Origin: Halosimplex salinum
Lineage (GTDB): Archaea; Halobacteriota; Halobacteria; Halobacteriales; Haloarculaceae
DNA length: 64,000 bases
Assembly: GCF_003730195.1 (NCBI RefSeq)
Contig: NZ_QWGG01000003.1
Location: 372,001 to 436,000, forward strand
Direction of reading: 5' to 3'
The position numbers and the translations under genes were made by a program. How positions within the stretch are numbered: position 1 is the stretch's first letter; each line of letters opens with the position of its first letter. Under the pieces are notes generated by a model. The model made no database searches and was not told where the DNA came from. It saw nothing but the letters and a program-made list of their open reading frames with translations. Shown piece by piece: positions 16,216 through 18,151 of the stretch.

Positions 16216-16497
16216 CTACTGGTCGTCGTCCCGGAGCGCCTCTGCGATCGCCTGCAGGTCGGCTTTCCTGAAGCTGTCGCCGCTGTCTTCGCTATCGCCG
16301 TCGAGCCCGTCGACGGCCGCGCGGATCGCGGTCCGCATCGCCGGCTTCGACGGCTGTCCGCTCGTGTCGATATCGGCGTCCACGGCGTCGCAGATGGCCG
16401 CGAGCGCCTCCTTGGTGAAGGCGCTGGAGACTTCTCGCTCGAATCGGTCGACCGAGACGCGGATCTCGTTGCGTAGGGCGTGGACCGTCGGTGACAT
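16216..16497 (-). CDS. Small acidic protein of unknown function
   Basis: 93 residues. Predicted helical, with segments such as VHALRNEIRVSVDRFEREVSSAFTKEALAAICDAV and FRKADLQAIAEALRDDD. There is no signal peptide, membrane segment or known motif. The length and acidic composition suggest a haloarchaea-specific cytosolic protein. It is convergent with rimI (stops 7 bp apart). The start is the ATG of MSPTVH, and the cloverleaf element lies upstream of it. Confidence 0.65.
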   Translation of the reverse strand: MSPTVHALRNEIRVSVDRFEREVSSAFTKEALAAICDAVDADIDTSGQPSKPAMRTAIRAAVDGLDGDSEDSGDSFRKADLQAIAEALRDDDQ

Positions 16498-16903
16498 GGT
16501 GTGCCAGTGGTCGGGGTCCGTGGTGTACGTTGTGGTCGACGAGTTGGAGGGGGCTTCGAAACGGATCCGGGCGACTGCAGTCCCGCAACCGCACTCACCG
16601 TCGTAGCCGCGAACAGCCTGAAAGCCCCCGCTCGCTCCGGGAAGCACGACGACGTAAGCACTGGAGCGAGCGGCCCCTTTCATTCCCACCCGCACAGACT
16701 GACCGGCCGGCCGACACGGGTGGGAATGAAAGGGGCCGCCGTCTCGACGAACCCGGACGAGGCAAGCACCGCAGGCCGCCAGGCCGAGGAGCGCAGCGAG
16801 GCCCGGAAGTCGAGACGGCGGGGGCTTTCAGGCTGTTCTCGGCACCGATCGAGCCGGCGGTCGCGGTATCGGTATCGATGCCACCGGAACCACCAACTCC
16901 CGA
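16498..16903. other. 406-bp non-coding stretch holding the cloverleaf element
   Basis: No supported gene. It runs from the start of the 93-residue protein gene to the stop of the MFS gene. Most of it (16611-16838) is the structured element described separately. The flanks show no repeat and no clear promoter. Confidence 0.7.
16611..16838. repeat. Cloverleaf-like element of nested inverted repeats
   Basis: A closing stem of 19 perfect base pairs joins gaacagcctgaaagccccc (16611-16629) and its complement at 16820-16838. Inside are three consecutive perfect hairpins: arm 1, 11 bp (16628-16638 with 16663-16673, 24-base loop); arm 2, 23 bp (16670-16692 with 16717-16739, 24-base loop containing ccggccggccgg); arm 3, 13 bp (16736-16748 with 16809-16821, about 60-base loop). 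Both the outer stem and arm 2 contain a tGAAAG/CTTTCa core beside a run of Gs or Cs. It could be a structured RNA, a non-autonomous mobile element or a protein-binding DNA cruciform. There is no coding frame. Confidence 0.85.
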
Positions 16904-18151
16904 TCACCACGCCGTGAGCGCGTCGCGGCCGTGGTTATAGGAGAGGATGCCGAGGAAGGCGAACACGCCGGTGAAGGCGAAGGCGCCGCCGAGGTAGAAC
17001 ACCCAGTCGATGCCGACGTTACTCGTCAGCCACCCGCCGGCGAGCGGCGCGAGGACAGACCCCGGCCGCCAGACGAGGTCGCGCACCCCGAAACTGGAGG
17101 CGACGCCCTTGCCCTTCCCCTCGTCGGCGAACAGCGCCATGCTCGCGGGCTCGCGGATCGAGTCCGCGACGCCGAGCAGGCCGTTGAGCACGACGAGCGG
17201 CAGGAAGGCGGCGGAGAGTTCGCCGAGGAACGGGAAGGTGGTCGGGAGCGCGAGCGTCCCGCCGATGACCGGCGTGAACGGGACGGCCAGGGCGACGGTG
17301 CCGTAGAACAGGCCGCCGACGAACACGAAGCGAGCGCGGCCGAACCGGTCGGAGAGGCCGCCCGTGTACGGCTGGCAGAGCATGTTCGTGAACTTCTCGG
17401 CGGCGATGACGACCGCGACCGCCGTCGCGCTGTTGACGTAGCCGAGGCCGCCGTCCGCTGCCGCGAGGCCGGCGTAGATTGGCACCCACGTCCGCACGAG
17501 CGTCACCGCGACTGCGTACTGTGCGCGGAAACTCGTCATCGTGAGGATGCGCTTGTTGAACGCCAGATCGGTGAAGGGGAACCCGTGGATCCGGGTGTCG
17601 TCGGGCTCGACCCAGAGCCAGACGACGACGAACGCCGCCGCGGCGACGATCATCAGCAGCGTGAACACCGCCTCGAACCCGAACAGGTCGTACAGCGCCC
17701 CGGCGGAGAACGTCCCGCCGATGGCAGCCGCGAACCGCCAGGCGTTGGACGTCCCGATGGTGTTGGCCCGCTCGGACTCGCGGGCCAGGTCGCCCACGAG
17801 CGCCAGCGCGATGAGCCCGGCCGCGGTGGCGGCGATGCCCTGGACGGCTCTGACGGCGATGAACTGCCAGCTCGTCTCGACGAGGGCGAACCCGAAGTAG
17901 ACGAACACGGAGAGGCCGAGCCCGCCCAGGAGCACCGTGCGCTTGTCGTAGCGGTCGCCCGCCCACGAGATGGGGATGATCCCGACCGCCTGCGCGAACG
18001 TCAGCCCGGTCGCGAACAGCCCCAGGACGAACCCCTCCGCGCCGAGTTCGTTGATGAACGTCGGCAGGAGCGTCAGCAGGGTCACCAGCCCGAACGAACT
18101 CGCGAATCGCGTGAAGTAGAGCGCACGCAACTGCCGACCTGTGTCTGTCAC
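16904..18151 (-). CDS. Major facilitator superfamily transporter
   Basis: 415 residues with twelve predicted membrane helices. The MFS loop 2-3 motif is GDRYDKRTVLLGG (motif G-x-x-x-D-R-x-G-R-R variant), and its half-repeat is GGLSDRFGRARFVFVGG. It is a secondary carrier driven by an ion gradient. The sequence is closest in style to drug or metabolite efflux members, but the substrate cannot be inferred. It lies 117 bp downstream of ileS on the opposite side of no obvious partner, so is probably transcribed on its own. Confidence 0.9.
   Translation of the reverse strand: MTDTGRQLRALYFTRFASSFGLVTLLTLLPTFINELGAEGFVLGLFATGLTFAQAVGIIPISWAGDRYDKRTVLLGGLGLSVFVYFGFALVETSWQFIAVRAVQGIAATAAGLIALALVGDLARESERANTIGTSNAWRFAAAIGGTFSAGALYDLFGFEAVFTLLMIVAAAAFVVVWLWVEPDDTRIHGFPFTDLAFNKRILTMTSFRAQYAVAVTLVRTWVPIYAGLAAADGGLGYVNSATAVAVVIAAEKFTNMLCQPYTGGLSDRFGRARFVFVGGLFYGTVALAVPFTPVIGGTLALPTTFPFLGELSAAFLPLVVLNGLLGVADSIREPASMALFADEGKGKGVASSFGVRDLVWRPGSVLAPLAGGWLTSNVGIDWVFYLGGAFAFTGVFAFLGILSYNHGRDALTAW

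Follow-up and report, generated by a model that had tools for sequence, protein, structure and literature searches.

The cloverleaf at positions 16611–16838 of the window, a stretch of 64,000 nt from Halosimplex salinum (contig NZ_QWGG01000003.1), is one copy of a multi-copy repeat family. Family members display covarying stems and a wobble bias confined to one strand, are conserved at the same sites between species, and are built of a unit that also forms dimers. The family is taken to be a Halobacteria-wide, dispersed, non-coding structured repeat, carried by chromosomes and many large plasmids, that most likely acts as RNA, a reading for which the chances appear about even. That the folded strand is RNA, that protein binds it and that it has any physiological effect is inferred. 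The structured element is present in most of the sampled haloarchaeal genomes, with tens of copies in some, and haloarchaea are main archaeal models. If it acts as RNA it would represent a large new archaeal RNA family; if as DNA, a new kind of strand-specific site in archaeal chromosomes and plasmids. Either way the repeat is worth recognizing in genome annotation and assembly.

The cloverleaf and its half-units

In the RNA fold, the element consists of an outer stem and three hairpins around a four-way junction that has no unpaired bases. A preliminary description had reported a perfect 19-bp stem enclosing three perfect hairpins of 11, 23 and 13 bp. The perfect 19-bp inverted repeat and the three hairpins stand; counted from the junction, the inner perfect helices are 9–11, 20–22 and 11–13 bp, the range being due to assignment of shared junction pairs. 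Arm 1 has a G.T at the next pair beyond its perfect helix. The minimum free energy of the cloverleaf is −192.9 kcal/mol, compared with −125.5 ± 5.6 in dinucleotide shuffles (z = −12.1). Copy number and covariation led to rejection of a unique palindrome or chance fold. Inverted repeats of at least 15 bp with arms 100–300 bp apart number seven in the real window, five of which can be due to the 19-bp outer stem, and one in total in 20 mononucleotide shuffles.

The element lies between a transporter-like gene that ends at 16904 (minus strand) and a small gene that starts near 16497 (minus strand), whose orthologues begin MSPTVHALRNE. A 156-aa frame at 16216–16683 (minus strand) extends over arm 1; it was rejected as an over-extended start since orthologues begin at MSPTVHALRNE. 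No credible gene was found inside 16611–16838, in agreement with the non-coding character proposed at the outset. The covarying stems and conserved non-canonical loops resemble those of structured RNAs in Rfam 15, but at gathering thresholds neither the window nor any of five plasmid loci matches an Rfam family.

Matches on plasmids were confined to the right half of the element, and this shows that the cloverleaf is two inverted units of the form GGGYGGGANTGAAAGGGGC[arm]GGGGCTTTC (Table 1). The half-unit is about 110 nt and reads GGG-Y-GGG-ANT-GAAAG-GGG-C[arm]G-GGG-CTTTC. Its fold has a 5-bp GAAAG:CTTTC helix, a facing GGG pair, a C-G pair and a 12-bp arm; two extra GGG tracts (GGGYGGG) stand before the helix. 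The arm sequence drifts freely with pairing retained, and the arm end has two conserved non-canonical internal loops, GAA versus GA beside the stem and AA versus GCA deeper in the arm. The preliminary description had noticed GAAAG/CTTTC next to a run of G or C in the outer stem and again in arm 2. This core is real, and it recurs because the element consists of two inverted half-units. The half-unit covariance model R1 matches the right half-unit with E = 1e-17 (388718–388831 of the contig, plus strand), the window being among the 52 sequences of the model, and the left half-unit on the minus strand with E = 2e-7 (388618–388691).

Table 1. Positions of the features of the cloverleaf element in the window
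Feature	Position	Strand	Basis
Whole element, inverted dimer of two half-units, four-way-junction cloverleaf	16611..16838	.	Fold, homologous full-length copies
Outer stem, left strand GAACAGCCTGAAAGCCCCC; family consensus RAACAGCGTGAAAGCCCC	16611..16629	+	Inverted-repeat check
Outer stem, right strand GGGGGCTTTCAGGCTGTTC	16820..16838	+	Inverted-repeat check
Arm 1, belonging to the left half-unit; shortened to 42-44 nt and flipped relative to usual orientation	16630..16671	+	Orthologue arms, full at 80-90 nt
Arm 2, 5′ strand GGCCCCTTTCATTCCCACCCG	16672..16692	+	Helix check
Apical spacer separating half-units, consensus ACAGACTG..N..CAGCCGAC	16693..16716	+	Fold, family copies
Arm 2, 3′ strand CGGGTGGGAATGAAAGGGGCC	16717..16737	+	Fold, half-unit alignment
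GGG tracts in arm 2 3′ strand	16718-16720, 16722-16724; third 16733-16735	+	
Helix strand GAAAG in arm 2 3′ strand	16728-16732	+	
Right half-unit GGGTGGG AAT GAAAG GGG C[arm 3]G GGG CTTTC, G-rich strand on +	16718..16829	+	
Left half-unit, same frame with truncated flipped arm, G-rich strand on −	16620..16691	-	
Arm 3: stem GCCGTCTCGAC, GAA/GA internal loop, conserved GGCAAGCAC...GAGGAGCGCAGCGAG internal loop	16738..16819	+	

About 50 parsed Halosimplex copies share one plan, i.e. the outer stem RAACAGCGTGAAAGCCCC, variable arms 1 and 3, and a conserved arm 2, GCCCCTTTCATTCCCRCCCG, with the spacer ACAGACTG..CAGCCGAC. The earlier view that pairing is kept and sequence is not applies to arms 1 and 3; in the outer stem and arm 2 the sequence is conserved as well. 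Roughly one in four Halosimplex copies is truncated, thus not every site is strongly constrained, and some copies bear additional inserted hairpins. In many plasmids and in other genera the half-unit is also found alone. Among 199 units, 181 have the arm in its usual orientation with respect to the G frame, and clear flips are few.

Distribution and conservation at shared sites

The search for further copies that the preliminary description had proposed shows that the element is not single: its own genome has about 15 copies. The 16-mer ACAGCGTGAAAGCCCC (up to two mismatches) marks both ends of copies in 8 of 8 Halosimplex genomes. In the H. salinum genome this outer-stem 16-mer is present 15 times forward and 15 times reverse, paired about 100–320 bp apart, and the seven relatives are similar. 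The covariance model gives 29 half-unit matches in the same genome, and Blast against it also returns many copies of the window element.

Of 292 haloarchaeal genomes, 149 contain a strict half-unit pattern, as do 50 of the 77 genera; the reversed pattern, used as a control, matches none of the genomes listed. The half-unit covariance model has matches in 99 of 116 Halobacteriales genomes and none outside Halobacteriales in a 148-genome sample of the phylum. Matches to ACAGGGTGAAAGCCCC in other families were dropped, as on inspection they resemble 23S rRNA. The half-unit is also on 135 haloarchaeal plasmid records, including Halobacterium salinarum pHS2 (72013–72125 of NC_010369.1) and Haloarcula marismortui pNG600, usually at one to few places each. 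No phage match was found, and a virus or phage element was rejected; five IMG/VR pattern matches are devoid of the G frame and look like chance. In many haloarchaeal plasmids the half-unit is separated from a gene for an OB-fold-like “DNA-binding protein” of about 290 aa (L312 1671–2537) by some 450 bp of conserved, structured non-coding sequence (L312 2545–3160; 166 plasmid records have homologous stretches). This region, which has no Rfam match in five loci, may be a plasmid RNA or a replication/transfer region.

Comparison of 8-kb loci, whose flanks are about 75%–93% identical, shows that between two and four species have the element at the matching position. These same-site elements include the window copy (L212, L237, L250, L261). 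Stems at the same site in Halosimplex often differ by few pairs and the pairing is intact, e.g. 2 and 3 of 12 in L241/L244, 1 and 3 in L214/L243, and a few compensated differences in L224/L246. The background between unrelated copies is about six stem-pair differences, and at some shared sites the arms are as different as this. As same-site stems change but stay paired, pairing outlives sequence at fixed sites, and the folded shape appears to be what selection preserves. At several orthologous sites (L212/L250, L213/L253, L230/L248) the two arms match better when swapped, and here the inner cloverleaf block appears to be inverted within the outer stem.

A less likely but possible reading is that of a non-autonomous mobile DNA repeat of the REP/REPIN type, i.e. 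ssDNA hairpins, single or in inverted dimers, that a trans-acting transposase would spread and that would survive between genes. Copies are dispersed, intergenic, randomly oriented, variable in number, single or inverted dimers, and in part truncated. They also vary between species, and one Halosimplex copy is missing at the aligned site of a relative. However, many copies keep their site from one species to another while changes in their stems are compensated, unlike decaying insertions. Two comparisons with relatives gave no clean target-site duplication or empty site, the flanks being too diverged to define a joint. Moreover, Y1 (RAYT) transposase genes number 1–2 per Halosimplex genome, and in four Halosimplex genomes none is within 5 kb of a unit; the closest is about 9 kb away (G094). 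A REPIN-RAYT system was rejected as no Y1 gene is near the units in these genomes.

Halosimplex copies are intergenic, typically about 50–200 bp from neighboring genes. Among 53 of these, 34 are between co-directional genes, 12 between divergent and 7 between convergent genes. The distances and the co-directional majority are compatible with a cis-acting transcript element, a terminator or a BIME-like 3′-UTR stabilizer for whichever gene reads into it, but this is an improbable explanation. Convergent ends are not enriched, for which a transcription terminator was rejected, and the unit has no T tract. Single units fall randomly into the orientation classes relative to genes (11/8/8/6), and the random orientation of both dimers and singles argues against a terminator or leader.

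Covariation and the folded strand

Compensatory changes, which had been named as a check on the fold, are frequent. With these and with tens of copies per genome, the case that had been set to refute the first interpretation, a lone copy with neither compensatory changes nor a transcript, does not apply. In an alignment of 52 half-units 95% of cells pair, and 20 of 28 pairs have changed on both sides. The covariation score of this alignment is 0.568, as against 0.158 when shuffled and 0.059–0.075 when the pairings are slid. RNAalifold, with the structure not supplied, recovers the arm and adds the C-G pair that closes it; GGG is left opposite GGG between this pair and the GAAAG:CTTTC helix. 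In 49 units from other genera, which are outside the training of the model yet were aligned to its own structure, helix 1 has G-C in 26 and C-G in 22, and in three an A-T is replaced by G-C.

Wobble pairs are unequally distributed between the strands. On the G-rich strand of units outside the model, the ratio of G.T to A.C is 44:7 (p = 1e-7), and it is 42:12 in 180 unique arms, both counts being from related and thus non-independent sequences. One inner arm pair is CG in 35, TG in 14 and CA in none. This asymmetry and the orientation of the arm relative to the G frame indicate that the functional fold belongs to one strand. The wobble asymmetry and the conserved purine-rich internal loops argue that only the G-rich strand folds, as RNA or ssDNA, and disfavor a symmetric DNA cruciform. 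A function in ssDNA would yield much the same covariation and wobble bias. A structured RNA, a mobile palindrome and a protein-docking cruciform were all considered originally; RNA (or ssDNA) fits, whereas the symmetric dsDNA cruciform does not fit well.

The remaining alternative, an improbable one, is a dsDNA site, where a cruciform or four-way junction would dock an architectural, replication or recombination protein. It has in its favor that the dimer comes close to a perfect palindrome and that every base at its four-way junction is paired. The inner blocks that look inverted between several orthologues would reflect a process at the DNA level, and many plasmids hold the unit in a conserved locus next to the OB-fold-like gene. 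However the wobble bias is contrary to it, as is the restriction of the purine-rich GAA/GA and AA/GCA loops to a single strand, and many units have no near inverted partner, which makes a cruciform impossible for them. Equal selection on both strands seemed indicated at first, as 42 Halosimplex copies have G.T and A.C in balance, counts that are small and mix both orientations; the oriented half-units disfavor it. Chromosomal clustering is not significant (p 0.06–0.15), which is also contrary to a dsDNA site and for which a terminus or origin marker was rejected.

The basic unit is the strand-specific fold of about 110 nt, whose 12-bp arm drifts while pairing is kept. In Haloarculaceae such as Halosimplex two units are placed head to head, so that transcription from either side would produce a cloverleaf with one correctly oriented unit. 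Against an RNA role, the 5′ ends of the two half-units in inverted dimers are only about 24 bp apart, too close for the units to have promoters themselves. The RNA could be a free transcript, or a domain in read-through transcripts of flanking genes. Its G-tract frame and arm loops may be what a protein recognizes, and individual chromosomal sites would be retained by selection.

Conservation extends to all four GGG tracts and holds in 39 units that have no inverted partner close by, some of which may have a distant one as in G207. Of 42 parsed units, 34 have at least three G in each of the four; tract 2 is sometimes GG, and in one plasmid variant all four are reduced together to GG. The pattern is suggestive of a quadruplex but not strict, and formation of a G-quadruplex by the four tracts is speculative. 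A class-wide RNA family in the form of a hybrid G-quadruplex/duplex, where the facing GGGs between covarying helices and the upstream GGGYGGG form a three-layer quadruplex, is a rather doubtful proposition. Molar K+ in the haloarchaeal cytoplasm would favor such a structure. Surveys of haloarchaeal G-quadruplexes exist (PMC12873603).

Related repeats and variants of the unit

REP, BIME and REPIN sequences are bacterial repeats, short intergenic palindromic hairpin units that occur singly or as inverted dimers. The haloarchaeal unit resembles them in these properties, in palindromic folding and in tens of copies per genome. It differs in having no RAYT/Y1 gene nearby, in its greater length, conserved internal loops and four G tracts, and in being class-wide in archaea, at the same sites between species and strand-specific in its fold. 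AAV-type terminal repeats are cloverleaf palindromes at genome ends. These and other cloverleaf palindromes similarly have an outer stem around several hairpins, but the haloarchaeal element is internal and multi-copy and is not at genome ends.

The nearest described haloarchaeal repeats are the MITEs, PATEs and SMRs of Haloquadratum walsbyi. These are described as short, transposase-free mobile repeats of one species that are defined by their termini, and SMRs have prominent terminal inverted repeats without target duplication (PMC3119063). The cloverleaf family is likewise short and transposase-free; judging by these descriptions, it is set apart by class-wide sequence drift with pairing kept. 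The literature searched, which covered few subscription journals and included parts of PMC3119063 and PMC12873603, contained no description of the half-unit or cloverleaf. Thus the family is apparently undescribed and uncatalogued.

Several variants of the unit are found. A second arm type, CTATCC...GGATATG, which looks unrelated, occupies the same GAAAGGGG..GGGGCTTTC frame in several genera (L316, L318–L320, L325, L327, L330, L334, L336), and given its presence there the arm seems exchangeable. Three loci (L206 3931–4237, L210 3940–4261 and L214 3944–4318) have perfect hairpins inserted in arm loops, i.e. CGAGAGAGCNNNGCTCTCTCG joined via TCATCA to CGAAAGAGC..GCTCTTTCG, as if the arms were recipients of smaller hairpin modules.

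The half-unit forms the 3′ end of an element of about 230–260 bp in G213 and the genomes of genus g26, with conserved TGGCGCG..GCGAGGGA and TGGGGAGG motifs. Only some of the full-length elements of this type are preceded by TATA-like boxes, with 7 matches within 18 bp upstream among 29, which also speaks against an RNA role. Four g26 loci (L402, L404, L405, L407) have full-length elements with tandem repeats, each about 55 bp, after their 3′ end; the repeats contain CTGGGGCTTTGGAGGTGTTC and most also contain TTTATAAG.
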